Program-made: the position numbers and the translations under genes | The notes under the pieces: generated by a model | The model's database searches: none | Told to the model about the DNA's origin: nothing | The model's input: the letters and a program-made list of their open reading frames with translations, nothing else | In this document: one piece after another, positions 5,424-36,400 of the stretch | Layout: every line of letters starts with the position of its first letter | Numbering within the stretch: position 1 is the stretch's first letter | Origin: Sporisorium sorghi | Lineage: Eukaryota > Basidiomycota > Ustilaginomycetes > Ustilaginales > Ustilaginaceae | DNA length: 64,000 nt | Assembly (NCBI GenBank): GCA_023212695.1 | Contig: JALCCG010000029.1 | Location: forward strand, 58,664-122,663 | Direction: 5' to 3'

Positions 5424-5816
5424 ATCGGCCGTGATGCGAATCTCGCCACTGTCCAGTGCCAAGGTGCAGCCGGCGAGTGGGACGGCACCACCGAAAAGGA
5501 TTTGTGGGCTGAAACGAGCAATGAAACCGAGTTGATGAACCGAGCAAGTCCCGTCACGCTTGTCCGTTCATGAGCGCTTGAACAGGCATGATACGCAGAG
5601 ATCAAAGAGCCTCGGATGGACTTGCGATCGAGGTCTTGGCTTTCGATCCGGGGGCGAGGGAGTGAGCGAACCTTGTTCGAACAGCTGGCAAGCAAGGATG
5701 GCTGAGATGGCGATGAATGCTCAAACGACCAGAATCGGCAAGGGTCCGACTTTTGCCTGCTTCATCTGCTGCTTCTGCTCTTGACTCGGATTCGCTCGGC
5801 GGAATTTTCAAAAAGC

Positions 5817-12745: not shown

Positions 12746-14447
12746 CGTTGGGGCTGAGTGAAAATTCCAGCAATTCTCTCCGCGTCGGCCTTCCTGCGTC
12801 CTGTGGTTTTAATGCCCTCCGCGAAGCAGGCTGATGTCATATGCTAGTCCCTACGATGAAGAGCGAATAATGGATGGAGCTCAGCCCGCGGTCCAACGTG
12901 CGAATGAATCGATGGCCTGAAACGGCGAGAGAGGAGAGAGAGAGAGAGAGAGAGAAAGCACGGCGCGAGAATTCCAATGCGGGAAAATGTGGGAAAAGAG
13001 GCGACCGTCAAAAATTTGAGGAGGCGTGGCGGCAGCGAAGCAAGCTCCCGATCACTCGGCCAGAGCCTGAGCGGCACCGTCGTGTATCGCGTATGGCGTC
13101 GATGATCGCGCTTGACAGATCGAACGAGGCCCTAGCGTCGCCTTTCAAAGATGCTTGAGGGGATTCACCGACCTGGAGGATCTTGGTGCTTCGGACGTGA
13201 CAGACTTGACGGCCTTTTCGAAAAGCAGGCTGCGCGGTGGCTACAGCGTCGTGTGTGCGGGATGGAGGTAATGGCGTTCAAGTGGATGCGATGCGGGGTT
13301 AGGACGGTGGTACAGTACGTTGCAGCGGACAACTTGGGAGTAGGAACCACGAACGAGGCCTTGAGGTGGAGGGATGATGGTGCGAAGACCACCACAGAGA
13401 TGACTTTTGCTTGGATGCGATCGAGGCGAGAAGGTAAGCTGCGAGCAGCGACGATCGTTGTTCTTGAGCGGGGGAAAGCGACTTGGTCTTGGCCTGGGAG
13501 GTGGGCGAGGTGGGATCGTTTCGCGTTTCGCCTCGTCGAAAGAAGTTTCTGCGACCGCAGCAGCAGCAGCAACGGACAAGCTCAAGGTTTCCTCGACGAC
13601 TTGCTTGGCTGAGCCAATGCTAGTTGGTCCGTGTGTTGAGGGAGCGTAAGGGTGGAGAGCGTGTAGAGCGTGTCGCTGAGCGGTCGGTTGGGCGTTTCAC
13701 ACGACCGAATCAGTGAGAGTCCGAGTCGAGTTGCGGATGTGCCGAGAACGGAGACGAGTGTGACCGACGACCATCACATCGCATCTGCAGATGGCATACA
13801 GCACGCAGCAAGGCGCATTTTTTCAGAAGAAATCGAGGATGGACCCTTGCAAAGCGGCCGCATTTTTATTATAATTCTTTGTAAAAATAAAAAAACCTTT
13901 TCGCAGTCATCGTGTAGACCCTCCGACTCGACCACCGACCCTTTTCCTTCACGACATGCCTTGACGGTATCTCAGCGAGCAGTTTCGTGAAGAAGATTAG
14001 ACGGGGGGGGGGGGGGGGAAAAAAAAAAAAAAAAAAGGATTGCAAAAAAGGGGTGATTGAAAATGCACGTCGGATGGTCAAGCCTGAGACGAGCTTCTGC
14101 TGGGATCACACGGCGACGCTCTTGACCATCGGCGTTGCTTGTCGAAGAGACCCTTTCCCTGCCAAAGAGCGCAACAACGCACTCTTCAACGTCACAGTGA
14201 CGATTCGTGACGGCGTAGATGACCGCCTCTCTGAGCGCTGTGATCACATTCGGAAGGGCCGACGCGCTGAGCTACTGCGGCTCTTGTGGTGAGAGAAAGG
14301 ATGGCTGAGCACATCACCCCAGAGCATCGCCACGTTCTGAGCAGAGAGAGGCTGAGTTCAAGATGGTAGAGCAAGAGAAGCCTCGCTTCGTACGTCTTTT
14401 CGAACCACCATCTGCCAACCACTCTCGCGCTGTGCAGCACAGACAAC
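12746..14447. other. Intergenic region between JmjC gene and RING gene
   Basis: This 1.7-kb interval should hold the promoters of both flanking, divergent genes. It includes a GA dinucleotide run near 12936-12955 and a poly(G)-poly(A) block at 14003-14036. Open frames of 100-150 codons exist on both strands between 13150 and 13650, but composition and missing ATG starts make them unconvincing. A small spliced gene on the minus strand here cannot be excluded. Confidence 0.5.
14003..14036. repeat. Poly(G)16-poly(A)18 purine block
   Basis: A run of 16 G directly followed by a run of 18 A, upstream of the RING gene. It is all-purine on this strand. The mirror arrangement (A run then G run) occurs near 47.55-47.64 kb. 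Confidence 0.9.
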
Positions 14448-16685
14448 ATGGCGTCCACCGTCTCTGAGTGCACACCTGGCTTCCTCGACCACGTACATTG
14501 TTCTGTCTGTCATCGCAGCCTCGTTGCCAGCTCCGATGATACGGCCAGAATCCCGAGTGGCGAGGGTCTAGTCGAAGATCCGTTTTGGATTGGCGAGGTT
14601 AGCCCCAGTCGTACGCCTCTGCAAGGTCAAGCAGATACTGACGACCTTTTCCAAACCAACACTCTGTCTCGCACTCATCTTCAGTGCTTTCACATCCTCT
14701 GCCATAGAGAGATAAACAGTATGTCTCAAGATCTCTGCTCCTCTTTGCTGCCCTTCCACCGCGCACCAACGAGCTGACTGACGGTGCTCTGTTAATGGTC
14801 TGGACTTGGACAGGCGGACAGCCTCGAGACCACAAGCCTCTCCCAAAAGAAGCTCAAGCCTACTGCCCAAAATGCTCCAACACGGTCTACATGGTGCAGC
14901 TTCAGCTGGATCAGGTGAGCTCGTGCCTCTAAATGGCCTCGCCGTTGAAGAAACGCGCAGCACTCAGCGGCTGAAGCGTGTCGACATCCTTGCGCTCTTG
15001 TCAGCAGTTGCCAGCTTCTGTCCAACGTTTCATGCAGCCCTTCGAAACCTCAATGAGCGAGATTATGGACACACATCGCGTGAGTATCTGATCCTCGGCG
15101 CAATGCAAAGGTAACGGATCACGCTGACAGTCTTGAAGCCTTTGCTTTTGGTGGAAGAGCAGTTTCAGGTACGTTTCTTTAACCATACAATGCCAGAAGG
15201 GGTGTCGATCGTCGCCAAGCAACTCATACAAAGGTCTCCACCCGCTTGTGCTTTCTAGTTCAAGCACATGTCAGACTTGATCAGGTGTGTACGCTCCTTT
15301 CATACGAGGGAATGACTTACGAAGCTCAGCAGCGGACGCTGACCAAGTCTGTTTGACCCTCGACTTGGACCGTCGTGCTTCATTCTGCTGTGAACCGACT
15401 CACTACGAGCTAGTCATCTCAAAGGCAAGGTCTTGGAGCAGAAACAGCTGCTAGATCGCGTCAAGCAAGATTTGACCCGGGCTTGGCAACTGCAAAAGTA
15501 AGCCTCGAAAGCCATCGTCCTGCGGTGCGAGAGAGCCGGCCTCCTTTTTCCATCGCTCTCCCTTGCTCGCATCGAATGATCGCTGACACTACGCTCCAAT
15601 CTCTGCGATGCTGAACACAGAGATCTGGAGGAAACGCGCAAAGAGAATCTCGCCTTGAAACAAGAGATCCAGGCCCTGCGATCTTCGCCCATCAAGACAG
15701 AGGCTGCTGGCGCCTCAGGAACCTCCGTGTTAGTCAAAGCAATGCGGTGAATCAACTTCGATACAGCAGCTCAGCCATCTAACCGCCTCTAACTTCCTGG
15801 AAACATTGCAGCAGAAGCCATCGCGCTGGTGATGGCAGAACCACAGCAGATCGAGGATACCTGCGGCCGCCTTCGAGACCCGCTGCTTTTCAACAGCAGT
15901 CGAGACCTGGCAGCCAACGACCTCCTCACCAGGCTCCACCCGCAGTCGCCTCAATCCAAGTGCAAAATCACGATTGCGACCCGCAGAGCTCGATGTAAGC
16001 TGCTGCGTTGAACGAAAAGGGTTGGTCAGCTTGGCAGCTATCGGTGCTGACACCGGCATGCCTTTGCCTACCTGACAGACCGCAGATGCGACCCTCGTCG
16101 AGCGTGTCCGATGTTTTCGCTTTCAAGCCGCCTCCGCTTGCGTTTCGATCCATACCACCAACAACCTTTGCAACGAGATCACCAGTTTCAGGTGAGTTGC
16201 GATTCACAAATGAAGAGCGGTGGTGCTTTGATCGAGTTCCTGACAACAGCTGATAACCTGATTCGTTCCTTGACTTCCTCCGCTGCAACGATGCAGAGCC
16301 GCTTCGAATCCAGCCAGGTGCGCTTCCTTCCTCGCGTCCGCCGCTGCGTGAAGCGCACAGTCCAGTGAAGCGGTTCGGCAAACCTCTGCAGGAGCCTTTC
16401 CAGCGTCGCTCTTCGCACGGAACCCCTCCTTACCAGCACACTCGCCCGACTAGCAGAGCAGCAGCAGCAGCAGCGAACATGTCTCAATCTCGTCCTTCCA
16501 ATTTGTTGGACCGGACGCAGGATCAGCCTCCGCATCGCATGCAAACGTATCCAGTGCATTCGTCAGCGCCGAGTCGCTTTGTACAGAGGCGGGACCCGTT
16601 TCACGCTGGTCCGGCCGGAGCATCGAGGCATGACACACTCGCTGACGACGTGCAAAGCGCTACAGATGACGTGGCAATGCTGTAG
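14448..16685 (+). CDS. RING-finger/coiled-coil protein, Zip3/HEI10-like, eleven exons
   Basis: Splicing by eye gives exons 14448-14597, 14685-14718, 14814-14914, 15008-15079, 15139-15168, 15259-15284, 15414-15497, 15621-15728, 15812-15994, 16079-16191 and 16297-16685. Together they make 1290 nt, or 429 residues, in one frame. All ten introns are GT...AG and 59-129 nt long. The N-terminus reads as an atypical RING: CSVC, then ECFHILC, then CPKC, with Glu where the sixth ligand is usually Cys or His. A coiled coil follows (about 130-200, Lys/Glu/Gln/Leu-rich). The tail is long, disordered and Ser/Pro/Arg-rich. RING, coiled coil and disordered tail is the plan of Zip3/HEI10/CCNB1IP1 ligases that act at meiotic crossover sites, and the length is also typical. 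The first intron and the small exons 5 and 6 are the least certain parts. An alternative is another RING E3 ligase. Confidence 0.6.
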
Positions 16686-16958
16686 CAGGGTAGAACGATG
16701 CTTGGCGACTGAGATTGCTGGCACAGAAGCAGAAAGTACGAAGAGGCCGAGAGACAAACGATGGCGGATCTCGAGAAGACGATGCGATGCGCGGCAAAAC
16801 AACTTCACAGACCCTGTAGCCCCTTCCATGGCCGTGATCGTCCCCGTTTTGAATGCATCAAATTTTGCCCTACACCGCCTATGCCCCGATTGTGTGTGTC
16901 AGCAGCCCCATGAGATCAGACAAGCAGAGCGTGCATGCCCAAATACCGAAGGTCCATT

Positions 16959-20644: not shown

Positions 20645-22475
20645 TGTAGGGAGCGATGTTGTACGCGAGAATGTCAGAACAGGGAATCAATCAATCAATG
20701 AAAAAGCCATTCACTGAGCGTCGCTTTTCGACAGCAGAGGCACACGAGTTGCTTTCAGTTAGCATGAAAGAGAGCTCGCAACCGTCAGATGGTGGCCCGA
20801 TCTCTGACAGGATAGTCGTATCGGTCGATCCGTAATGAGATTTTGAGAGCGACGTCTCCCAGCCAACGGAACGGGAAACGCCGGTCTGATGGAGCGGACC
20901 CGGCCAACTGGCGAAGGGAGTGGTCATCCGGCTTTTGGGGGCGTTGGGTCATGAAGAAGCTGCTGCTGCTGCATGGTTCACGATCGAGCGGGGCGCCGAC
21001 GGACTTTTACCAAAGATTCGCAGGACACGAAAGTGAGACACGAGAAAAGGAAACCACGCTGATCGTCGACCAGAAAACCCTGCAGCAGTATGCCACGATC
21101 GGCCGACATGGCAATTTGTGAGGATGACAGGGTAGAGAGATGGCGGTCAACAACGGCGCTCGCTTCTTCGACTGCAATAAGCCACCAACCGCTTCTTGCT
21201 TCTGTGCGAGTGAGGAGCACCACACTTGATCGACCATCGCCAGGAGCAGCAGCTGCTGTCGACGAGAAGGATCGAAGTGAAAAAGGTCGTGCTGCAGTGT
21301 GTGCAAGCAGTTCTTTCGCTCGCACTCTTAGAGAGAGAGAGAGAGAGGAAGCGCGCGCGCAAAACACCGCCCGACGCAGGCTGACGTCTCTCGGATCTGT
21401 TCTTTTTTGCTCTCGATGCGAACGAAGATTTTTTTTATTTTTTTATTATTTTTATTTTTCGAATTTCCCGACACTCAGTGTGAAGGGAGCAGCAGCTCCT
21501 CGGCCAAATCCATTTGAAAACAAAAAGAAAAAGAAAAATGTGCCCTCGTCGATCTCTGCATGTGGTCGGGGAACCGCCTCATTTCTGCTTGCTCAAACGC
21601 CAGACGAAATGAAATTTGGATCGCGAGCAAATCATTCCGATCAAAGCAAAAGTGTCTCATTTGACACTTGGTACAGAAGGCTCAGTGGTCGCAATCTTTG
21701 CCGTTCCAAGATCTATGCTCAGCTCTGTCCTTCCCGCCCTTCAGATTGGCTCAAGATGTGTCCAAGGTCACACGCAGCAGCAGCCTTCGCGATTGAAAAT
21801 GAAAATAGGGCCTTGACTGCTGCACTGAGACACGCGAAAAGAGGGGTCCCAAGAAGATCGGCAGCGGGGCTCTTGTTTGATTTGAAATGCTGCACTTGAT
21901 TTTTGTCAAATTCAAATTGACCGCGCTTCAGCGAGGCACAACTGCCCTTCAACACCGCCTTTCCCTCTCTCTCACACAGAAACGAGAATTCGAAGCTGGC
22001 GCTGCTGCTAGTGGCTCTCGATCCGCCTTCAGTGGTAAATCAGAAGCGTGTGTGTGTCTGATCGTTGCCGACTTGCTCATCTTGCTACGAGAAAGGGGCA
22101 GTCAAAGGAACAGGGGCTGGTCTCTTCTTTGTCCAAGATCGAAATCAAAAGATGGCCTCACGCCGAGCTGTACATCAGTGACAGCAATGACGCTAGATGA
22201 TGGTGATACCGATGATGAGGATGATGCTGATGATGAAGAGTCGATAATGAACCAAGCCGAGAGAAGAGAAGAGGGAAGGGAGTCCGGCAGCGGCAACCCC
22301 TTTCCGCGGTGCATGTGGTCGAGCAGTGAGAAAGAGAGAGGCAGAAATTCTCTTTTTCTTTCCTTGCTCAACAGCACAGCACAACACGGCAAGACAGAAG
22401 TCGCCTCTCCGATGCACATGAAGGGAAACAACAACAACATCGCAACGCAGAAAAACAACACGAGAAGCGAGCGAG

Positions 22476-22503
22476 ATTTTATTTTATTTTTCTAAAATAA
22501 AAT
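22476..22503. repeat. AT-only inverted repeat, 11-bp arms
   Basis: Arms ATTTTATTTTA and TAAAATAAAAT are perfectly complementary and separated by six nucleotides. They sit in an AT-rich patch that continues with AATAATAATAAAATAAA. It stands out in a GC-rich neighbourhood and could form a hairpin on either strand. Confidence 0.8.
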
Positions 22504-22735
22504 AATAATAAAATAAAAAAAAACACCCCCCAAAGCGTTGTCGATAATCCCCTGCCGAGTGGCTCGCAGTTGAACGCAGGGCAAGAGGCGAATCAGCATG
22601 GCCCCTGAATCGATTCCGATTTTTTTCTCCTTAAATTTAATTTTTGTGCTGTGCTGTGCTGCTGCGTACTGCACGCTCGGAGCGCCGCTGCTGACTTTGT
22701 GCTGGCTTGTCGCGGTTGAATGGCTTAGTGAGTTG

Positions 22736-22776
22736 CTTGCTTGCTTGCTTGCTTGCGCTTGCTTGCGCTTGCTGGC
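22736..22776. repeat. GCTT tetranucleotide repeat
   Basis: Tandem GCTT units, some expanded to GCGCTT, in the region upstream of the chitin synthase. A typical intergenic microsatellite. Confidence 0.7.
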
Positions 22777-23682
22777 TGAATTCTGCCTTTCGTCGATCTG
22801 TCTCCTCTCTTTCTTGCCTGCACAGCTCCTTCTCGCTTTGCTTCTGCTTTGCTTGCCTTGCTCGGTCGCAGGCTTGCTTTGTTTTTGCAGGTCTGCTTGC
22901 TCGCTCGCTCCTCCTTTTTTTTTTTTTTTCTTGTCTTTGCCTTGATCTTTCAGCTTTAGCAAGCAGCAGCAGCAGCAAACAATCGCTGACCGTCGCAGCT
23001 CCTTCTCCTCTTTGTCCTCACCACATCTCTCTCTCTCGCCCTTGCCGTAGCTTTGGTGGACACAGGCTTGCATCCTCGTTCCGCCTGGCTTCATCCTCAC
23101 CTTGTCCTCTTCGGTCACGAGCTCCGGTCGTCAACGTCGTCGTCGTTCGTCGCTGCCGCCGCCAAGCTCTTCCGCTCGACACAACTTCGCATCCAACCCT
23201 CCTCATCACAACACTCCTTCCACCTCATACGCATCCTTCGTTGGCTGCCGTGCCGTCGTTGCTCACTCTGCATCACCATCGAGTGCGCTAGCGCCAGTCC
23301 TTCACCAACCTCGACCAACACGGCTTGGCAGTCTGCTGCAGCAGCTCCCAACCTTCGGCGTCTCTGCTAGCCACGGCCCTGCATCGTCGTCGTTTTAGCC
23401 ATCTCCACCAGAGGCTTGTCTCATCCTCTTCGAGCAGCTGACCAGCTACCGTATTACGCATATACTACTTCTCTGACCCTGATCTCGGCTGGATGGATAC
23501 CTCGAACCTCTAGAATTGCTAGTTTCCCTTTCTCTCTGTCAACACCTTCTTTGTCTGCGACGACGTCTCAAGTCTCCTGACCACCAGCACCAGCTTGGTT
23601 CATCGACAGCAGCGATTGCTTTGCACTCTGCAACCTCTTCCAATCCTCGTTGCTCTTCGTCGCAGCCATCACCGACGCCGCC

Positions 23683-26600: not shown

Positions 26601-28452
26601 GCGCATGGTCGCCTGCATGGTCGAAGACCCCGAGATCATGGGCCTCTGCGGCGAGACAAAGATCGCCAATAAATCGGAGACCTGGGTGACCATGATCCAG
26701 GTGTTTGAGTACTACATCTCGCACCACCAGACCAAGGCGTTCGAGGCGTGCTTTGGCGGTGTCACGTGTCTGCCTGGCTGCTTCAGTGCGTATCGAATCA
26801 AGGCGCCCAAGGGCCCGCACGGCTACTGGGTGCCCATCCTTGCCAACCCGGACATCGTGGAGCATTACTCGGAGAACGTGGTGGACACGCTGCACAAGAA
26901 GAACCTGCTTCTGCTCGGAGAGGACCGCTACCTGACGACGCTCATGCTCAAGACATTCCCCAAGCGCAAGATGATGTTCGTGCCGCAGGCGGTCTGCAAG
27001 ACGATTGTGCCGGACACGTTCCGCATCCTGCTGTCGCAGCGTCGTCGATGGATCAACTCGACGGTGCACAACCTGTTCGAGCTGGTTATGGTCAATGATC
27101 TCTGCGGTACCTTCTGCTTCTCGATGCGCTTTGTCGTGTTTATGGAGTTGGCCGGTACGCTGGTGCTGCCGGCTGCGATTGCCTTCACGCTCTACGTCGT
27201 GGTGCAGGCGTTCCTGCCCAACGTGCCCACGCCTACGATTCCGCTCATCTTGCTTGCGCTCATCTTGGGTCTGCCCGGTATTCTGATTGTGGTCACGTCG
27301 CGCAAGATTGCGTACGTCGGTTGGATGCTGATCTACCTGTTCTCGCTGCCCATCTGGAACTTTGTGCTGCCGATGTACGCGTACTGGCACATGGACGACT
27401 TCTCGTGGGGTGCCACGCGAGTGGTGCAGGGCGAGAACAAGAAGGACAACCACGGCGATGCGGATGGCAAGTTTGACCCTTCGCACATTGTGATGAAGCG
27501 GTGGGCCGAGTTTGAGCGCGAGCGTCGCTGGAAGTCGGGCACGCACTCGCGCGACTCGACGTACGACGTGGTGCAGCGCACGGGCTCGCCGGAGAGGGCG
27601 GCTAGCACACGCTACTCGGTGGTGTCGTCGGATACGTTCCACTCGAATCCTTCTGGACTGCACGACCAGTTTGGCCGTGCGTTGCCGCATGCCATGTCGT
27701 CGAGCGCATCGCAGTTTGCACCTGACGCGTCAGAAGTGTCGCACAGCAAGAGCGCTTCGGGAGCGCGTGCTCGCCTGGATGCGGTTCCGCTGCTCGAGCT
27801 GCCAGCGCCGCTCGCGACGGATGCCAAGCAGCGCGGAGGTGCTTCGCCGCCTGGCACGGTGGTGGTGCCGCGACCTCGCGCCACGTCTCCATCGCCTCTG
27901 CCGCACAACTCGGGCCACCCTGCTCTCGGCAGCGTCAACGCCTATACACCGACGCAGTTCGGTTCCAACCGCTTGCCGGCACCGCCTGGGGCTGTGACCT
28001 ACGAGGCGTACCCTCACACGGATGTTGCTGACGACGAGAAGCGACCGATGATCGGGTCGGCGTCGAGTTCGCCAGATCCGGAGCCTCGTCGGTTTGTGGG
28101 CTCGGACGTGGCAGTGCGACACGGCAGCGTGTCGACCGAGCAGCGCTACCCGGCGGTGAGCGAGTCGGCGTACCCCATGCAGGCGTACACGGCGGAGCCC
28201 GAGACGGACGCGTCGGTGTGGCACTCGCAGCACGGCTCAAATCCAGCGAGCCCCGTGCAGCCGAACCGCTCGATCACGCGAGGATTCAGCTTGGTGGATG
28301 ACGGTCCCGTAGCCAGTGCGCAGGGTGTACGACAGGTGCAGCGCGGAGCAAGACGCACGTCGCAGATGCCCAACAACGGGGCGACGTCGCCTTCGTCTGG
28401 AAGCCGAGCTGGCAACTTGCCAGCAGGAGCGGCTCCTCCCAGCTTTGACTGA
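23683..28452 (+). CDS. Class IV chitin synthase
   Basis: Encodes 1589 residues. The ATG at 23683 sits in a strong GCCGCC context; the frame opens slightly earlier without another ATG. Residues 1-300 are Pro/Gln/Ser-rich and disordered. Membrane segments follow near 310-380 (beginning GGWMIYCYILTICCPGPFLRVFG), and an extracytoplasmic loop with several N-glycosylation sequons (NNT, NHT, NVT) runs to about 600. The GT2 catalytic domain spans about 780-1150, with VDADTKV near 961, GEDRYLTTL near 1080 and QRRRW near 1119. A group of C-terminal membrane helices ends near 1240, followed by a 340-residue disordered tail. The N-terminal membrane pair and lack of a myosin motor place it with class IV (yeast Chs3-like) enzymes, of which Ustilago maydis has two (Chs5, Chs7). 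I cannot say which this is. It polymerises UDP-GlcNAc into chitin at the plasma membrane and septa. Confidence 0.93.
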   Translation: MNPFESPSDAGRPSAQGARPARAEGPPPLPPLTIPGGARPQPNAFSPPQPQHQQLPLPPGYQPQSHQQPRPQQPFFSPPQGAMSPPLNNAPQANQRLPGISFQEPQRIPAQRSGPSRESVKSYGDDKRSINDPNSSSTALNQINSLDPENGFSAQNANFRRKKSLVRPDRERMDPNHRQWYYRNHAAHMDVMAASGGRVGYMPSTTGHLPQHGAAPHGSGMAGIVGPGGGLSGLGVTGPANVPPGGLGRAPPLRRGKSILGRDEDQVETAINVLKRGVSLRRKQSKSGKASKEVPRDLGESKTSRIAPGPVGGWMIYCYILTICCPGPFLRVFGIRTPEQQRAWREKMGLIGIIALIMSAVGFLTFGFTQTVCGTPPDRYTLGTIDVGSMTFNGYDYSFDRFVHPQVGPFGANTIYNHTNPIYSEPWSSGGQDGSLLFQKVGASCTGLISNRNGGGQPERYFDCTLVRQDGNGAYANNTMCHTGSIISSFNDGAQPKNSIIRKRGQVSLNWNNVTDTTRNLAVFRGAVLDLNRLNNLTAGLTYPALYDVLKRRNDTWAGRDVTATVMRQRLDNEFACLEQITRIGFIDSETIGCVASKVELYLSLVFIIGVVAIKFFMAVMFGWFISWRLGNYANETYEQRMKRAAEIEQWSDDIYRPAPAGYRPNARKHKSFLPTQSRFSVADPLSLKSGSRAPMPLSEKRMTRAGRLGVASPLGGSPPGSPSVAGGRSSASLAPAHSRRSSFSGSPAEGAMGVCPFPLHHIVPQPGPDYRPFGFQLAHSICLVTAYSESFEGLRTTLDSLATTDYPNSHKLLLVIADGIVKGAGSDISTPDICLSMMKELVIPAEEVEGNSYVAIADGYKRHNMCKIYAGFYDYDDETVERSKQQRVPMILVAKCGTPLEADSTKPGNRGKRDSQVLLMAFMQKVMFDERMTAFEYEFFNSIWRVTGVSPDNYEIVLCVDADTKVFPDSLSRMVACMVEDPEIMGLCGETKIANKSETWVTMIQVFEYYISHHQTKAFEACFGGVTCLPGCFSAYRIKAPKGPHGYWVPILANPDIVEHYSENVVDTLHKKNLLLLGEDRYLTTLMLKTFPKRKMMFVPQAVCKTIVPDTFRILLSQRRRWINSTVHNLFELVMVNDLCGTFCFSMRFVVFMELAGTLVLPAAIAFTLYVVVQAFLPNVPTPTIPLILLALILGLPGILIVVTSRKIAYVGWMLIYLFSLPIWNFVLPMYAYWHMDDFSWGATRVVQGENKKDNHGDADGKFDPSHIVMKRWAEFERERRWKSGTHSRDSTYDVVQRTGSPERAASTRYSVVSSDTFHSNPSGLHDQFGRALPHAMSSSASQFAPDASEVSHSKSASGARARLDAVPLLELPAPLATDAKQRGGASPPGTVVVPRPRATSPSPLPHNSGHPALGSVNAYTPTQFGSNRLPAPPGAVTYEAYPHTDVADDEKRPMIGSASSSPDPEPRRFVGSDVAVRHGSVSTEQRYPAVSESAYPMQAYTAEPETDASVWHSQHGSNPASPVQPNRSITRGFSLVDDGPVASAQGVRQVQRGARRTSQMPNNGATSPSSGSRAGNLPAGAAPPSFD

Positions 28453-29255
28453 AGGCCCGTGTTGGGCGCGAACGAGCAATCATTCCCTCCTCTCGATAGC
28501 ATCATACCTTCCGATCTCTCTCTCTTTCTTTCCCGGCTTCGCCTCGCGCCATCATCACCGCCCACTCTTTCTTTATCGAACAATCGGTCGCATCGGAGAC
28601 GCAAGCATTCCACTCACTCATTTCCCCCTTTGTTTCGATTCGCTCTATCTCATTATTTCGCCCTTTCTCCACGTGAGGCGACTCTTGCTGCTGCGAGAAC
28701 CTCGTATGCAGATGTAGGTTCGTCCATCCACAACTTTATTCGCGCATGTTTTACGACCTCTTTCTTCTTTGTCTCGTCCCTCTCAACCCCCTCATTATTC
28801 GTTTGCCATCATCTCTCGCCTCTGTTCAACCCCACCTTTACTTCCTGTGTTGGCGGCAGCAGCATCATTTTTGGCACAGCCGCAAAATCGCAATCAAAAT
28901 GGACATTGCATTCGTCTTTCCATAACGTAGCTAGGCCGAGGATGAAGTCAAGTCTGGATGATGAGAGAGTTCGCCCGGTGTGCTGCCCTTGTACGGTGTG
29001 TGCGACCGTCGCTGTGCTTTGGCGCCGTGCAGACCACGGAGGATCACCGTCTGGAGGGAATGAAACCCCTCTGCCCGGCACATCGGACCCGAAAAAAAAA
29101 AATTGAAAATCTACATGGCGGTAAAAAGGGTTGGCTGGGCAAAAAACAAGAACATTCCTCCGAGGTGAGCAAAAGCAGTCGAGCCGAGCAAAACAAAGAG
29201 GGAAGGGCAGGCTTACCTTGGCCGTCAGAGAGGGCACACTGGACGATTCCCGCTC

Positions 29256-29259
<4 letters not shown>

Positions 29260-29294
<35 letters not shown>

Positions 29295-29322
29295 TGTGTG
29301 TGTGCATGTGTGTGTGTGTGAG
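29260..29322. repeat. GA microsatellite followed by GT-rich tract
   Basis: About 15 GA units directly followed by alternating GT/GC-rich sequence. Simple repeat in intergenic DNA. Confidence 0.8.
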
Positions 29323-30529
29323 GGAGAGAGGGAAGACGGGGATGAAGAAAGGTGCCCTCTTTTAAGTCATTGTGCGGGCCCATGCTCGCGTGCTCATCGT
29401 ACGGGGACGATGTGTATATCTGGACAGCGTGCCATGCGCTTCGTAGGGTCCCTTCGGCGTTTCCTCTGAGTGCCTCCTGTACCTGTTGCTAGAAGAGAAA
29501 AGGCTTCAAGAGTCGTAACGGCGCAGACGATGAGTTTTCGGGGGGCAGCCTTTGTGCCGCCTGAAGCGTTCAACCAATGAGAACTGGCCAGCTCACATAC
29601 CAAGAGGTGCCATGATCACATATGCCGACATTCGCCAAGCTCTTTCCCGATCATCGAACCAAAAGCCACCAACAGACATGCAACACACACGCCGTTTTTT
29701 TTTTTTTCATTCAATCAGCGCTGCAGTACGTAACTCGATTTTATTTCTCTGCCCCTTGGCACCTTTCCGACAGACAATGGTGCTCATTGCTTTGTCTGGG
29801 GAAAGCGGCATTGTTCCGGGTTGAGAGAACGAGGGAAAAGGTACATGTTGTTGCATCGTTGCGTATGAGTCTACACCTTGCCTTCCTTTTACGGGGCTGT
29901 ACAGTAAATTTATGCGCCTATTTTCCATTCCGAAATTATTAAAATGAAAAATTGGAAGGGAAAACAGAAGAGGAAAGAAACCCTTTTCGCCTTTCACGCA
30001 AGAACGGCCAGCGTTCACCGCATGAACGTCCGACTTTAGGATTGGGTGCGCTCGGCATCGGTGCTTTGAGGCAATGCTATCACCTTGCTCGTAATGGAAA
30101 GAAAGTGAAGGAGATCAAAGCTTTAGTCAATAGCTGAGGCTTTCAGAGAGAAAGAGGAGCAGAATCGACATCGCTGGCAAGCAGCAGCGTGCGCCGGCCT
30201 TGCATTTTTCTGTGCCTCGTGCAAGACAAACGCCGCTTTGAAAACTCAGGTCACAGCCCACCTAGAAAGAGGCGTCGTGCCTGCAGGAGACACCTGAATG
30301 AGCCTGCCTTGCACTTGAGTGCCGCTCGCCGTGGCGTCTCCTCTGTTCGATGAGCTGCTCCTGCCTTTCACCGCCAGTCACGTCTGGCCCTAGCTGCATT
30401 TCGAGCAATGTACAGCGTTGAAGGGACGCAAGCCAACGATTTGGAAGGAGTAAACTCCTTTGGCAGCACGCTGACTAGCTCCAGTGCTTTCTGTGCTGCA
30501 AAAGAGGCTCCAGCGATGACTGCTTGCTC

Positions 30530-30599
30530 CTTTGACCCGATTCTGAGCCAGAGGGTGTGTGAAACTTTGACTCGATTCTGAGCAAGAAAGTGTGTGACA
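30530..30599. repeat. 35-bp tandem duplication upstream of the Fanzor
   Basis: Two adjacent 35-nt copies (30530-30564 and 30565-30599) match at 30 of 35 positions and share the core CGATTCTGAGC and GTGTGTGA. The second copy ends 78 nt before the Fanzor start codon, so the pair lies in its promoter or 5' leader, or at a subterminal repeat of an element. Confidence 0.85.
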
Positions 30600-30677
30600 G
30601 GTTGATACGAGTGGATTGCCTGAGTTCCATCATTGTATTCACCAACACCCGTACCAGATCCAGCCCCTCCCATCGCC

Positions 30678-32642
30678 ATGATTCCCGTCAAGCTTACCAA
30701 CTATCCCCGTGAGGACCTGCTTCGCCGCGGTAAGGATCGTGGACCCCACGTATACCCTTTTCGGGATCCTCTGCTCGAGAACAAGTACAGCAAGCTCATG
30801 TTGCCTGCGACGGAGCATGCTGTCGAGGGGCAGATGACCCATCCCGCCCTCCAAAACACCTGGTTCGACGTCAAGACCACCCACTTTACCGCCAACGCTA
30901 GAGGCACCATCCAGCGTTGGCCGTTTGGAAAGACTACGGTGGAGCAGACACTGGGTCATATGCCCTCGGACCGCGGCCGTCTGAATCTCGAAGATCTTGG
31001 CGGCGTTCAGGAGGCCCTCGAGAAAGCAGGCGAGAATGCCAGCTCGGCACAGTCTTCGTTGCCATCCTCGGCCACATCGTCGGCGCAGGATTCGTTGCCA
31101 CCCTCGACGCCATCCTCGGCCCCATCCTTGGCCCCAGCCTTGGCCCCAGCCTTGGCCCCAGCCTTGGCCCCAGCCTTGGCCCCAGCCTTGACGCCTCTTC
31201 CCTTCCCTGCAGTGCTTGCCCCCGAGATCACAAACACACGTGTGAGGGAATACAAGTTTGTTGTTTCCAAGGATCTGCGAAAAGTGCTGAGGGAGTGGGC
31301 GGAGAGCTACGTCATCACAAAGAACGAGGCGATTCGACGGGTCAACAGCATGGATACTGTTCCCAGCGAGTATGATCTGTACAAAGAGCTGGTCAACAAC
31401 ACGAGCTCTTTTGTTGCAGAGCAGAAAGCCGCAAAAGGGATCATGCTGAATAAATGCCCTACCCAAGTCCGTCGCACAGCTGTCCTGGAGGCTGTCGCTG
31501 CACGCAAGTCACTGCTGACCAGGCACAAGAAAGGCAAGAAAGTGCCTGAGATCAAGCCTGTCAAGCTGTCGCGCGACTTTGTCCTCACGTTCCCAAAGAC
31601 CTCTGGCTTTGTCTCATTCGAACGAAACAAGCCCTCGGATAAGTGGAACAACCCTCGGCTGTGCATGACGCCCCAGCTTCTTGGCAGTCGAGGTGTCAGT
31701 CCGTACGTCGACATGCGAGTCAGTGGTCAGAAAAATCGGCAATGGCTCTACGACTTGCTCCAGACAGAGGACGAGGGCAATCTGACGGAGCGCTTCCCTA
31801 TGCGTCAGGAATGGCGCATCAAGCACGATGAAAAGGGTGATTTTTACCTGATCATGGCGTACAGGGTGAAAACCACGAAGCCAAAGGCCAAAACGACGCT
31901 AGGTGACAGCTCTAGCTCCCTGGTCATCTCTGTCGATCCTGGTGTTCACACTGCGCTCACTGCATATCACTCGGACGGTAAGGTGGTGGAAATTTGCAAC
32001 ACTGACGATGCAAAGCGGCTGGCGGATCTCAGGCTGGCCGCGGACAAGCTCCAGGCTCGTCGACTTCTCACAAAGGACCAGGTCGAGAAAAAAAGCGACG
32101 TCGACGCAGAGCCTCAAGAGCAGGTCGAGGAAAAGGACAACGTCGACAAGGCTCAGGGCAGCACGGGCGCGGCGCTTGCACTGCCAGCCAAGCAGCGTCG
32201 TCGGCTGCATAGTCAGGAGCTTCGCATTGACAAGCGCCACCACAACCTGGTCAAGGATATGCATCGACGGGCTGCCAATTACTTTGCTACAAGTGCAGAT
32301 GTGATTGTATTGCCTCGCATGGAGACCAGTGGGATGGTTAAAGGCAAGCGTCTCAGGAAGAGCACCAAGCGCAGCCTTTTGGGATACGCTCATTGCAAGC
32401 TGGTCGATCGGCTGTATGTCAAGGCGCACGACGTACAGCACGACAAGCGATACAACAACAAAAAATTGCTCTTGCTCGTTCAACCAGAGGCATACACCTC
32501 AAAGACCTGTGCCAACTGTGGCCACATCAACGACAAGCTCGGCTCAAAAAAGGTGTTTGAGTGCCCTCACCCTCAGTGCAGCTACATCGCCGACCGTGAC
32601 CACAACGGCGCCGTGAACATGCTCATCAAAGCCATGCGCTGA
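30678..32642 (+). CDS. Fanzor, eukaryotic TnpB-like RNA-guided endonuclease
   Basis: Encodes 654 residues from the ATG at 30678 (GCCATCGCC context; the frame extends upstream only through non-ATG codons). No intron is needed. The C-terminal third is an OrfB/TnpB-type RuvC nuclease. RuvC-I is SVDPG with Asp420. The RuvC-II strand VIVLP has Pro546 where TnpB has its glutamate. A substitute Glu604 lies in VQPEAYTSKTC. The zinc ribbon uses Cys611, Cys614, Cys629 and Cys634, and RuvC-III DRDHNGAVN has Asp641. The E-to-P swap with a new glutamate next to the ribbon is the rearranged active site described for Fanzors. N-terminal residues 1-100 and 180-410 probably form the recognition/wedge lobe. 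Between them is a Ser/Pro/Ala-rich linker (about 115-175) with LAPA repeats. Known relatives cut DNA guided by an RNA made from the 3' end of their own locus. No transposase is adjacent. The frame is intact, so it is likely active or recently so. Confidence 0.92.
   Translation: MIPVKLTNYPREDLLRRGKDRGPHVYPFRDPLLENKYSKLMLPATEHAVEGQMTHPALQNTWFDVKTTHFTANARGTIQRWPFGKTTVEQTLGHMPSDRGRLNLEDLGGVQEALEKAGENASSAQSSLPSSATSSAQDSLPPSTPSSAPSLAPALAPALAPALAPALAPALTPLPFPAVLAPEITNTRVREYKFVVSKDLRKVLREWAESYVITKNEAIRRVNSMDTVPSEYDLYKELVNNTSSFVAEQKAAKGIMLNKCPTQVRRTAVLEAVAARKSLLTRHKKGKKVPEIKPVKLSRDFVLTFPKTSGFVSFERNKPSDKWNNPRLCMTPQLLGSRGVSPYVDMRVSGQKNRQWLYDLLQTEDEGNLTERFPMRQEWRIKHDEKGDFYLIMAYRVKTTKPKAKTTLGDSSSSLVISVDPGVHTALTAYHSDGKVVEICNTDDAKRLADLRLAADKLQARRLLTKDQVEKKSDVDAEPQEQVEEKDNVDKAQGSTGAALALPAKQRRRLHSQELRIDKRHHNLVKDMHRRAANYFATSADVIVLPRMETSGMVKGKRLRKSTKRSLLGYAHCKLVDRLYVKAHDVQHDKRYNNKKLLLLVQPEAYTSKTCANCGHINDKLGSKKVFECPHPQCSYIADRDHNGAVNMLIKAMR
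31126..31190 (+). repeat. 12-bp minisatellite inside the Fanzor gene
   Basis: Five or more near-perfect copies of the 12-nt unit CTTGGCCCCAGC encode consecutive Leu-Ala-Pro-Ala units. They are preceded by diverged, longer copies of a CC-TCGGC-rich unit. Because the unit is a multiple of three, copy-number changes keep the frame. It falls in the linker between the N-terminal region and the nuclease core. Confidence 0.9.
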
Positions 32643-32966
32643 GGTGTTTCTCTTCCCCTAGCATGATGCTCTTTTAGCGAAATCTTCCATTCCTTGATGC
32701 CGCCGCCGCACGCCTACGCCCGCGCAATGACCCTTCCTAATCCAAGTGACCGTCGTCTCTACGCTGCTGCTGCAGGACGTTCGCCCTCTATCACTCACGT
32801 GTCGTTCGCGATCAACGCCCGTCGCTGCTGAGGAAGACAGCTCCGACTTGACCGACGCGTTGTTGGATCTGGCGTTCTTTGCTTGTTTCTCTGCATGGTC
32901 TCCGTCGTGGCGGCAAGCCGTCGCGTTACGTGAGTGTGAGAGGAAAGATGCATCGCCGATCAGCTC

Positions 32967-32994
32967 AAAAAAAAAAAAAAAAAAAAAAAAAAAA
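32967..32994. repeat. 28-nt poly(A) homopolymer
   Basis: Uninterrupted A run between the Fanzor and the ABC transporter. It could in principle be the tail end of an inserted sequence, but similar runs occur beside many other genes in the window. Confidence 0.9.
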
Positions 32995-33352
32995 GAAAGT
33001 GGGATTGGCTTGGCTGCGTGGTGTGCTGCCGCATTCGTGTGCTCGCCAGGATGGCTCTTTTTTCGGCAGAATGATGCGTGCGATGTACGCCCCGTAAGTT
33101 GATTTGTTCATTTGTGACTGCGCTTTCTCGTGTCTGACTTTTGTCACAAAAGAGCACGCCAGAAGATTACATCAGCACACCATTCTTTAGCTCCCCCACC
33201 TCTTCTCCATCCTCCTCCTCCTCCTCCTGCTCGTCCTCGTTATCTTATCTCGCCTGCTTTCCCCGCAGCAGGACAAGGCTAAGGCTCGAGCAGAACAGCT
33301 TGCATTTAGCCGAGGGAAGGACCAGCAGCGAGACCTTAGCGTCGGACGGATC

Positions 33353-33376
33353 GGATCACATCACGCGGCGTGATCC
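33353..33376. promoter_or_regulatory. Compound palindrome in ABC transporter promoter
   Basis: Two nested inverted repeats share this site: GGATCAC...GTGATCC as outer arms, and ATCACGC-G-GCGTGAT around a single central base. The site ends 77 bp before the transporter start codon. The symmetry suggests a dimeric regulator site, but no factor is identified. Confidence 0.4.
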
Positions 33377-33453
33377 TGCCCAGCACTAGAATAGCTGTAG
33401 CGGAGGTCGCACAATTCAAAGGCCTCAATCCATTGCGGCGCAGGGCAACAACA

Positions 33454-36400
33454 ATGGAGGGCTCAGCACCCGTCGAAGAGCTCGGCGCTCTGTCCACTTT
33501 CGATGCGTCCTTGCAATCCCACGGCGTCGGCGCGGATCCATTGCTAAGCGTGCCCCTTCGCTTCTTCTCTTCGACACTCGATGCATTGCAACGACGTCCG
33601 ACGCTTGCCAAACTCTGCGACAACCCTGAAGGATGGGGCCCTGTCTCCCAGAAGCGCGACCTCGACTTTACGCCGTGCTTCCAGGAAGCCGCATTCTGGG
33701 TCGCACCTGTCTTCCTCCTTGCCCTCTTTGGCGGCATTCAGCTCGCCATTCTCTCTAGACAGGAGCAGAGGTCTTTGACGCGCACATCTCGCACTCTCCT
33801 TTGGGCCAAGCATGTCGTCGTCGCGGCTCTTGCGGTTGCTGCCGCTTTCCAGGCCTCTCTTTCGTATGGCCTCTTCGCCAGACCGGGCGATTCGCTCTTG
33901 TTCTGGTCTTCGATCGTCGGTGTTCTGAGCTACTTGCTCGTTCTACCGCTTCAGCACTTTAACCACACGCGCTCTCGCCGCAGCTCGGATGTGCTCCTCC
34001 TCTTCTGGCTCGCGCATCTGCTGGCGGGCGTCGTCAAGCTTCGCACCTCGCTTACGCCGCCCTCGCCGCCCGTCAAGCACCAGCTCATCATCTTTGTCCC
34101 CTTGATCGTGCGCTTCGTCCTCGGCATTGTCGCCTTTGCACTCGAATGCGCCGGTGTCGAGGTCGGCTCAGAGCGCGATGTCGATCACAAGCGATCCTCT
34201 GTTGCCCAACCTCACACCAACGGTAACGGCTACCACGCCGTCTCCACCGACGCCAATGGCAGCTACTTCAGCGTCTTTTCCGATACCGACGCCGAAGCCA
34301 ACCCGGCCACAAGCAACGAGACCGTCGTCGACTCGGGCAAAGAGTGTCCCGTCGTCACCGCCAACCTTTTCAGCCGTGTGACGTTTCACTGGATGCAGCC
34401 GCTCATGACGCTCGGTGCCAAAAAGTTCGTCACCGAGGACGACATGTGGGCGCTTCCCGCCAACGAGGACGCTGAAAACCTCGGCCGCCGCTTCGACAAG
34501 TTCTGGAAGCAGACAAAGAACAAGACCACGGGCAAACCTGCCTTCTGGACCACCTTGGCCTACTCGTACGGCGGCCCTTTCCTCTTCGCTGCCGTCCTCA
34601 AGTCGGCACAGGATACGCTCGCCTTTGTCCAGCCGCAGATCCTGCGCAAACTGCTTCAGTTCGTGCAGAGCTACGACAGTGCCGACGCCAACCAGAGCGC
34701 CATGCAAGGTTACCTGCTGTCGGCTGCGCTCTTTGCCGTCGCCATTACCCAGACCTCGTTCCTGCACCAGTACTTCCAGCTCGTCTTTGTCACCGGCATG
34801 CGCGTGCGTGCCGGCCTCGTCAGCGCCATCTTCAAGAAGAGTCTTCGACTGTCCAATGAGGACCGCCGAGGCAGAGCCACGGGTGACATTGTCAACCTCA
34901 TGTCCGTCGACGCGACCCGCCTGCAGGATCTGTGCACCTACGGCCACATCGCCTGGTCTGCTCTCTTCCAGATGACTCTCGCTTTCGTGTCGCTCTACAA
35001 CCTGCTCGGCTGGCCCTCGTTTGTCGGTGTCGCCATCATGGTCGTCAGTGTGCCGCTCAACACCGCCCTCGCCCGCTACCTGCGTCGACTCAGCGAAAAG
35101 CAGATGAAGGTCAAGGACAAGCGCACGCGTCTCATGAACGAGATCCTCACCAACATCAAGTCGATCAAGCTGTTTGCCTGGGAGGAAGCCTTCACCCGCA
35201 AGCTCTTCAAGGTGCGCAACGACGAGGAGCTCAAGCTGCTGCGCACCGTCGGCGTCGTCTCGGCCTTCTTCAACTTCTTCTGGACCGCCATCCCCTTCTT
35301 TGTCTCGCTCGGCACGTTCGTTACGTACGCTTACACCAACCCAGAGCCTTTGACCGCCGACGTCATCTTCCCGGCGCTGGCCTTGTACCAGCTGCTGTCT
35401 TTCCCGATTGCCATGTTTGCTGGTATCATCTCGGCGCTGTTGCAGGCGCAGGTGTCGGCCAAGCGACTTTCCGACTTTTTCGATGCGGGCGAGCTCGACC
35501 CTACGGCGCGCAAGGTCATTCTCCCTGGCCAGCGCGAGCCTGTCAATCCGGACGCACCTTCGCGCCCGGACGACGTGCTCGATACGCTCAACGACTCGAA
35601 TAACCCCGCACACGAGCCTGAGCAGGATGACGAGGTGGTCATCATCCGCGATGGAGAGTTCAAGTGGTCGCGCTCGCAGCCCGTGCCTACGCTGCAGGAC
35701 ATCAACCTCAAGGTCAAGAAGGGCGAGCTGCTTGCGGTGCTCGGCAAGGTCGGTGACGGAAAGAGCTCGTTGCTCTCAGCAGTGCTGGGTGAAATGGTGC
35801 GCACCGACGGCGAGGCCATCGTCAAGGGCCGCACCGCCTACTTCACCCAGGGCGGTTGGTGCATGGGCGCCACGGTGCGCGACAACATTCTGTTCGGCCT
35901 CAAGTACGAGCCCGAGTTCTACCAGCGAGTCATAGATGCCTGTGCTCTGACGCCGGATCTCAATATCCTGCCCGAGGGTGATCGCACCGAGGTGGGCGAG
36001 CGCGGTGTCAGCCTGTCGGGTGGTCAGCGTGCCCGTATTGCACTGGCACGTGCGTGCTATGCCCGCGCTGATATTTACTTGCTCGACGACCCGCTCGCTG
36101 CGGTCGACGCCCATGTCGGTGCTCACATTTTCAAGCATGTCATCGGCCCTGAGGGCTTGCTGCGCAGCAAGGCTCGTATCCTGACGCTCAACTCGGTCGC
36201 ATGCCTTCCGCAGTGCGATCAGATCGTTTCGGTGCGTCGCGGTATTATTCTGGATGAACGCGGAACATACGACGAGGTGATGGCCAAGAAGGGCGATCTG
36301 TTCAACCTCATCACGGGTCTCGGCAAGCAGAGCGCTCGCGAAGAGGCGGCCGACGAGCAGACTGACGAGACGCCAGCCAAGGAGCTCGAAGTGGTCGACA

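Follow-up and report, generated by a model that had tools for sequence, protein, structure and literature searches.

Fanzor1 proteins are widely spread in fungi (PMC10432273), and the Fanzor of S. punctatus, SPu-1 or SpuFz1, is a described system with which a new fungal gene can be compared. Its omegaRNA comes from a region of 75-80 nt behind the stop codon, with a scaffold of about 75 nt and a variable guide of 14-15 nt (PMC10432273). The gene analysed here lies in a window of 64,000 nt, which is the whole stretch of smut DNA under study. Like SPu-1, it is a single open reading frame, of 654 as against 633 amino acids (PMC3627910), and its putative D-E-D site (D420, E604 and D641) resembles that of SpuFz1 (D383, E541 and D606; PMC10432273). 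As in SpuFz1 (PMC10432273), a candidate guide-RNA region lies behind the stop codon and ORF-less ghost-like copies occur elsewhere. The two systems differ in their ends and in their numbers. SPu-1 has 33-bp inverted repeats, which have no clear counterpart at the window gene, and putative TA duplications; its 17 full-length copies share about 92% identity with their consensus, whereas here one open full-length copy is accompanied by diverged relatives (PMC3627910). S. punctatus has 134 ghost loci without the gene, about 550 nt long and with inverted repeats on their flanks, whereas each module tested here has one solo copy, with 81-89 bp in common and no inverted repeats shown (PMC10432273).

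Mimivirus elements are listed as Fanzor2 (PMC3627910), and mimivirus L79 (PDB 9b0l) is a Fanzor2 by its entry title. L79 is like the window protein in having lost the canonical RuvC-II Glu and in carrying an alternative Glu at the same place, but it is 520 amino acids long and has a Thr aligned with G569 of the window protein. The bacterial TnpB proteins (IS200/IS605 and IS607) share the order of RuvC-I, zinc ribbon and RD with the window protein and are homologous to it by profile. However, they keep the canonical Glu, lack the alternative one (21/21) and show 18-28% identity in the alignment. Cas12f, Cas12m and TranC also have the TNB zinc ribbon and a related RuvC nuclease, with scores below that of L79.

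In the literature searched, no paper on both Fanzor and Basidiomycota was found, and none of the smut-fungus papers among the matches listed mentions Fanzor; the table of Fanzors in Bao and Jurka 2013 contains no basidiomycete that we recognised (PMC3627910). Since Fanzor1 is placed widely in fungi by PMC10432273, we do not claim the window gene as a first report. We consider it likely that the window encodes a Fanzor, probably a Fanzor1, with a 3' guide-RNA module and ghost solo copies. Beyond an earlier note on the same DNA, the present analysis adds a relocated catalytic Glu, a CX4C zinc knuckle, diverged or decayed copies, and solo 3' modules.

The window frame encodes a Fanzor

By its sequence, the frame is a real, open Fanzor gene, and its predicted product is a protein of an already known kind. 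The single 654-codon frame that the earlier note had described is indeed open from ATG to TGA on the forward strand (Table 1). In 300 single-base shuffles of 28451-33453, the longest stop-to-stop frame had 380 codons, as against 654. The initial Met and the motif LTNxxRxDx...VYPFxD are common to the window copy and the C97, C456, C288 and C192 copies found elsewhere in the genome, so that the start codon of the window frame is probably right.

Table 1. Positions in the window of the Fanzor gene, its predicted functional residues and the associated 3' elements
Feature	Position	Strand	Basis
Fanzor open reading frame	30678..32642	+	654 aa plus TGA, intron not needed
N-terminal region, aa 1-110	30678..31007	+	LTNxxRxDx, VYPFxD, RWPF or SWPF stretches conserved in other copies
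12-bp tandem repeat, in-frame, coding a Leu-Ala-Pro-Ala-type linker	31098..31193	+	sequence
RuvC-I predicted catalytic Asp420, DPG motif (D420-P421-G422)	31935..31937	+	residue map, alignment
Pro546 at the canonical RuvC-II Glu position	32313..32315	+	alignment
Glu604, relocated RuvC-II Glu, E604-x6-C611	32487..32489	+	alignment
Zinc ribbon C611-C614-C629-C634, second knuckle CX4C	32508..32579	+	Pfam and residue map
RuvC-III Asp641 (DRDHN)	32598..32600	+	alignment
81-bp 3' module, candidate omegaRNA scaffold region	32655..32735	+	79/81 identical to solo C172:18045-18125
Possible left inverted-repeat arm, weak	29366..29379	+	13/14 to 32718..32731
Possible right inverted-repeat arm, weak	32718..32731	-	repeat search

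The profile search that the earlier note had proposed gave no better match to an unrelated RuvC family. The Pfam TNB domain PF07282 matches residues 599-648 above its cut-off (E 2.3e-12), and the NCBIfam model guided_TnpB matches residues 216-650 below its curated cut-off (E 6.3e-18). The three PHROGs matches comprise two transposase families and one family without known function. All matches at E <= 0.001 were to TnpB, Fanzor, TranC, Cas12 or phage transposase families, the exceptions being a zinc-finger model that stayed below its own cut-off and a phage family whose function is unknown. The top solved relative by sequence is L79, with E 8.4e-10 for the single-sequence query and E 9.9e-20 when a profile built from four copies of this genome was used. 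Together with the published fingerprints and the relocated Glu described below, the profiles support the identification as a Fanzor made in the earlier note. In one scan of viral contigs, eight stretches fitted a pattern, and none of them encodes a relative.

The predicted structure, another check that had been proposed, agreed in its matches and fell short as proof of the fold. The model reached a pLDDT of 35.8 from the single sequence and 43.5 with 14 alignment rows, 13 bacterial relatives having been added. With this weak model, Foldseek returned ten matches at E <= 0.001, all to TnpB, Fanzor, TranC or Cas12; since their TM scores were 0.15-0.30 and their rmsd 16-27 A, we did not use them as proof of the fold. 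The top match of the weak model was again L79 (E 3.5e-10, TM 0.19-0.26), and SpuFz gave no significant match (E 4.6).

That the protein belongs to an unrelated RuvC-fold family or stems from bacterial contamination is hardly credible. The assembly does hold a bacterial-looking contig, C88, with a broken IS605-type TnpB, but the window contig carries fungal core genes, two sister copies of the Fanzor have an intron of spliceosomal type, and the matches at E <= 0.001 are nearly all to TnpB, Fanzor, TranC, Cas12 or phage transposases. A Pfam search of the genome added C88 alone to the relatives, with an HD-domain gene beside the broken TnpB. The region C88:34500-44000 is bacterial in look, and the assembly probably holds contamination.

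The active site has a relocated Glu and a CX4C knuckle

Fanzors are distinguished by a DPG at RuvC-I, by the loss of the canonical RuvC-II Glu, and by a Glu six residues before the zinc ribbon (PMC10711439). The active site was aligned among the window copy, C97, C424, C456, six bacterial TnpBs and the TnpB piece from the bacterial-looking contig. The RuvC-I Asp420 and RuvC-III Asp641 named in the earlier note are both in place. Its RuvC-II strand, on the other hand, lacks the canonical Glu, which is replaced by P546; by Fanzor rules the catalytic Glu would be E604, which had not been named. In the canonical column, Pro is found in all four fungal rows and Glu in all seven bacterial rows, whereas the E604 column has Glu in 4/4 fungal rows and in no bacterial row. 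Thus, the window protein shows both the DPG and the relocated-Glu fingerprint of PMC10711439. In a wider count by eye, 21 of the 29 bacterial TnpB loci fetched show the full motif stretch (the other eight show only a tail and were left out). In every one of the 21 the canonical Glu is present and the alternative one absent; these loci are not independent, since 18 of them come from the genus Okeania. The broken copies were also read by eye: at the two positions, Pro and Glu are found in C288 and Leu and Lys in C69; C192 keeps the Pro but is missing the Glu stretch, and the C468 fragment retains the Glu.

The motif of the Fanzor/TnpB superfamily, D-X(125,275)-[TS]-[TS]-X-X-[C4 zinc finger]-X(5,50)-RD (PMC3627910), is present in the window copy, C97, C424 and C456 alike when the zinc finger is allowed to be CX2-4C. 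None of 2000 protein shuffles carried either of two signature patterns, whose spacings we had relaxed. The search pattern of PMC10711439, used there for related TnpBs, asks for CxxC-x(12,18)-CxxC and for a distance of 120-160 residues from DPG to Glu. The window copy falls outside this pattern through its 181 residues and its CX4C, and C97, C424 and C456 fall outside through their spacing (173, 183 and 181 residues) despite having CX2C.

Four Cys do form the zinc ribbon, as the earlier note had stated, but the second knuckle is CX4C (C629-PHPQ-C634). This form is confined to the window copy, as C97, C424 and C456 have CX2C. A copy that died recently, its frame still open and its protein inactive, for instance through this knuckle, could look the same, given that CX4C occurs in none of the three other open copies tested. 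At 0.02 substitutions per site, neutral decay would also leave such a frame open with a probability of 0.30 if there are no indels, or of 0.055 if there are. Against this, conservation covers the catalytic residues as well as the start and the end of the frame, and we regard a recent death as improbable.

Fanzor1 is favoured over Fanzor2

G500 and E536 of SPu-1-1p, 36 residues apart, are extremely conserved in Fanzor1 (Bao and Jurka, PMC3627910). Their counterparts in the window copy would be G569 and E604, 35 apart, and the Gly typical of Fanzor1 is thus present; in the same column C424 has Ala and L79 has Thr. Judged by G569 and E604, by its size and by its long RuvC insert, the window copy is probably a Fanzor1, an assignment that is favoured but not settled. 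Against it, the nearest solved relative both by sequence and by Foldseek is L79, a Fanzor2, and the 20 solved chains listed at E <= 10 by sequence include neither SpuFz nor any other Fanzor1 chain. Other features of Fanzor1 are a TDG motif and a kinked pair of REC2 helices (PMC10711439). We did not spot TDG by eye in the window protein, which has TSG at 308-310, and the model is poor (pLDDT <= 43.5).

Fanzor2 is carried by IS607-type elements with a serine recombinase. Among the 11 frames scanned in the 64,000-nt window (of 42 listed frames of >= 250 aa), neither a serine recombinase nor a transposase was found. Upstream of the Fanzor lies a chitin synthase gene. Downstream, a gene for an ABC transporter that has two ABC domains is followed by HAT1 and RRP7; more distant genes encode UFD1, a TCP-1 chaperonin and a proteasomal ATPase.

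The window copy is the one full-length open copy found in a decaying family

The own assembly (23.2 Mb, 469 contigs) was searched for further copies, as the earlier note had suggested, with counts that are lower bounds. At least nine further Fanzor loci were found (C97, C456, C424, C69, C288, C192, C468, C379 and C169), all of them diverged, and every one either disrupted, shifted in frame, reduced to a fragment or truncated by the end of a contig. The window copy is the sole full-length open Fanzor found in the assembly. C97 has one frame change, in its N-terminal part, and C456 has at least two; unrecognised introns or assembly errors may explain them. C424 is open and begins at a contig end. 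C192 lacks the stretch bearing the Glu and most of the zinc Cys residues, C69 has Lys at the Glu position and several frame breaks, and C468, C169 and C379 are fragments. C288 has His-Asn at the Arg-Asp of the last motif, followed by a stop; since GtFz1 has Asn at the same place and is active (PMC11423790), the Asn alone is not proof that C288 is dead. C192 and C288 share an intron of the form GTAAGT...AG just before RuvC-I (L014 about 5460-5550; L013 about 5220-5310), and the window copy, C97, C424 and C456 read through this site without a break.

In a tree of ten rows built from the C-terminal half, the window copy stands apart from C97 with C424 (98/100) and from C456, C192, C288 and C69 (88/98), on a branch of its own of 0.45 changes per column. 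The window copy therefore does not belong to a recent burst of the protein gene. Between C69 and C288 there are 203 differences in 2166 aligned sites; transitions make up 175 of these, and 116 of the transitions have a G 3' of the C. Thus, their decay is mostly at CpG. The transitions resemble those of methylated CpG or of a RIP-like process.

The Fanzor copies differ mostly at synonymous sites, with dN/dS between 0.17 and 0.38. By the Nei-Gojobori method, C97 and C424 gave dN 0.27, dS 1.55 and a ratio of 0.17. The ratios were 0.25 for the window copy with C424, 0.19 for the window copy with C456, 0.38 for C97 with C456 and 0.26 for C424 with C456, at dS 1.8 to 3.8. These ratios, computable for five of the six pairs (the exception being the window copy with C97) and all from one genome, are near or at saturation, since dS is at least 1.55 in every pair (2.2 to infinite for the pairs with the window copy). 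In a neutral simulation with substitutions only, the window frame stayed open with a probability of 0.57 at 0.01, 0.30 at 0.02 and 0.055 at 0.05 substitutions per site, so that its openness caps any neutral period at a few per cent divergence. The earlier note had judged the copy to be active, recently active or under selection; the open frame as against drift, the synonymous bias and the 97.5% identical solo 3' module described below lend this indirect support.

An ex-transposon protein kept for a host nuclear function, and now immobile, would also account for the presence of just one open full-length copy, flanked by core genes (chitin synthase, ABC transporter and HAT1), for low, though saturated, dN/dS between copies, and for the lack of clear inverted repeats. 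However, a domesticated gene would not readily explain a 3' module that was recently copied, with 2 differences in 81 positions, nor a family most of whose members have decayed in the manner of a transposon family. We accordingly give this explanation little credence.

Solo copies of the 3' module suggest ghost loci

The 81-bp module begins 13 nt after the stop codon of the window Fanzor. It emerged from a 708-bp query covering the gene end and the sequence downstream, which had a single other match in the genome, on C172 (97.5%). The sequences on both sides of the module are unrelated between the window and C172, and the genome search found no Fanzor match on C172. The solo place there lies outside the listed frames of >= 150 aa, the nearest Pfam-matched gene being of the RSE1/DDB1/CPSF1 type. 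A solo LTR adjoins the C172 module (L024 4161-4491), with three other copies at 92-95% and AAGGG on both sides by eye. We considered the 81 bp as a part of this LTR and rejected it, the LTR family ending about 54 bp before.

If the 81 bp are a ghost, other Fanzor copies should show a solo partner of their 3' side as well, and C97 was used as a test. The 3' flank of C97 has a single solo partner, C97:16887-16972, of 86-89 bp at 92%, beginning 21 nt after the stop codon. This place is 14 kb from the C97 Fanzor, and the Fanzor match there is at chance level (E 0.95); a mechanical frame of 337 aa without a Pfam match crosses it. Both module pairs end sharply at the right, where unrelated sequence follows. 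A solo partner was thus found for both of the Fanzor 3' flanks searched directly, among ten Fanzor loci. Each solo place carries an ORF-less copy from within the stretch between the stop codon and the putative right end, with variable sequence behind it, as a ghost locus does. In view of the solo copies at C172 and C97, recent mobility of the 3' module of the window copy is likely. A match of 29 bp at 86% joins the region upstream of the C97 Fanzor (L083 5609-5637) to that downstream of its solo module (L009 300-328), probably by chance.

In the mechanism that we propose, the window frame encodes a Fanzor from a small, old family in which no other full-length open copy came to light. By homology, this protein would bind a short RNA transcribed directly behind its gene; the 3' tail of the RNA would be the guide, and matching double-stranded DNA would be cut by the RuvC site of D420, E604 and D641. 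The 81-bp module downstream of the stop codon would be the likely scaffold-coding region together with the right end, followed by the guide, and the solo modules elsewhere would be ghost loci supplying other guides in trans. The sequence itself shows the frame, its residues, the diverged relatives and the solo 3' modules; RNA binding, cutting, transcription of the module and mobility are what we infer for the window Fanzor. As a tentative proposal, on which we would not insist, the solo modules may function as ghost guide-RNA loci. Scattered ORF-less RNA genes would then serve the one open Fanzor in trans, with guides that differ from one another; the genome is compact, the protein family is otherwise decaying in it, and the scaffold would be unrelated from lineage to lineage. 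With distinct would-be guides at the solo modules and one open copy in a genome of 23 Mb, the idea of trans-acting ghosts is testable on few loci, and the relation between the protein and the RNA part could be traced across the diverged Fanzor copies.

The Fanzor may instead be intact while the solo 3' segments are short pieces copied in break repair, or footprints of an element that formerly occupied the site, and not guide-RNA loci. Such an origin fits with the absence of excess RNA structure in the modules, with the lack of a second end at C172, with the CTTCC seen by eye at both junctions of the window piece, as a repair insertion or a target duplication could leave, and with a dispersed repeat at 29011-29066, in the same gap, that has no clear link to Fanzor. 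It is harder to reconcile with a solo copy for 2/2 Fanzor 3' flanks, of like size and distance from the stop, as against 0/3 control queries with a match over 45 bp. The controls (29110-30677, 12750-16950 and 20650-23640; 8,760 bp, for the most part between genes) returned either nothing or matches no longer than 45 bp, with identities up to 91%, and three queries are few as a base rate. The segment 28960-29120 was not counted among them because it was searched for a match that was already known. On balance, we think a repair or footprint origin unlikely.

The dispersed repeat itself starts sharply at GTGCTTTGGCGCCG and occurs at three places in the genome. It matches C98 over 38 bp at 97% (L025 4430-4467) and C424 over 53-56 bp at 82% (L011 1695-1750), about 126 nt behind the stop codon of the C424 Fanzor.

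Folding, ends and targets of the modules

Compared with dinucleotide shuffles, the RNA fold of the modules showed no excess: z was +0.5 to +0.9 for the window module, +0.9 to +1.0 for the C172 solo, +0.5 to +1.2 for the C97 module and -0.3 to +0.7 for the C97 solo. Longer 3' stretches gave z of +0.7 and +1.1 for the window copy and of -0.3 and +1.35 for C97. Of 12 stretches folded, only that of the C169 fragment was low (z -2.1), and the 3' region of C424 had no excess. Rfam returned nothing in 28500-33600 at E <= 1. The window and C97 modules are unlike each other (P 0.64). Ten comparisons among five 3' regions gave two at an uncorrected P of 0.02 (the window copy with C424, and C97 with C288), and when the 81 bp of the window copy were compared more strictly with the sequence 3' of eight other copies, the lowest P was 0.195.

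For the possible inverted-repeat arms, single-base shuffles give P 0.04 and 500 dinucleotide shuffles give 0 to 0.01, but 11 of the 74 control windows taken downstream score as well, a small number of them overlapping the right arm. Neither inverted repeats nor a second end were found at the C172 solo place, and no clear left end of the modules emerged. The 20 nt behind each module had one other match each at 2 or 3 mismatches, which is about chance (estimate 1.4 at <= 3).

Towards the end of the gene, the share of identical codons rises over the last 14 codons (38 of 54 codon pairs, as against 33-54% in the other 40-residue bins from 161 on). Since the pairs are not independent, this synonymous conservation is no more than a hint of an overlapping RNA. 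At the other end, two tandem 35-nt units, 86% alike, lie at 30530-30599, about 80 nt before the start codon.
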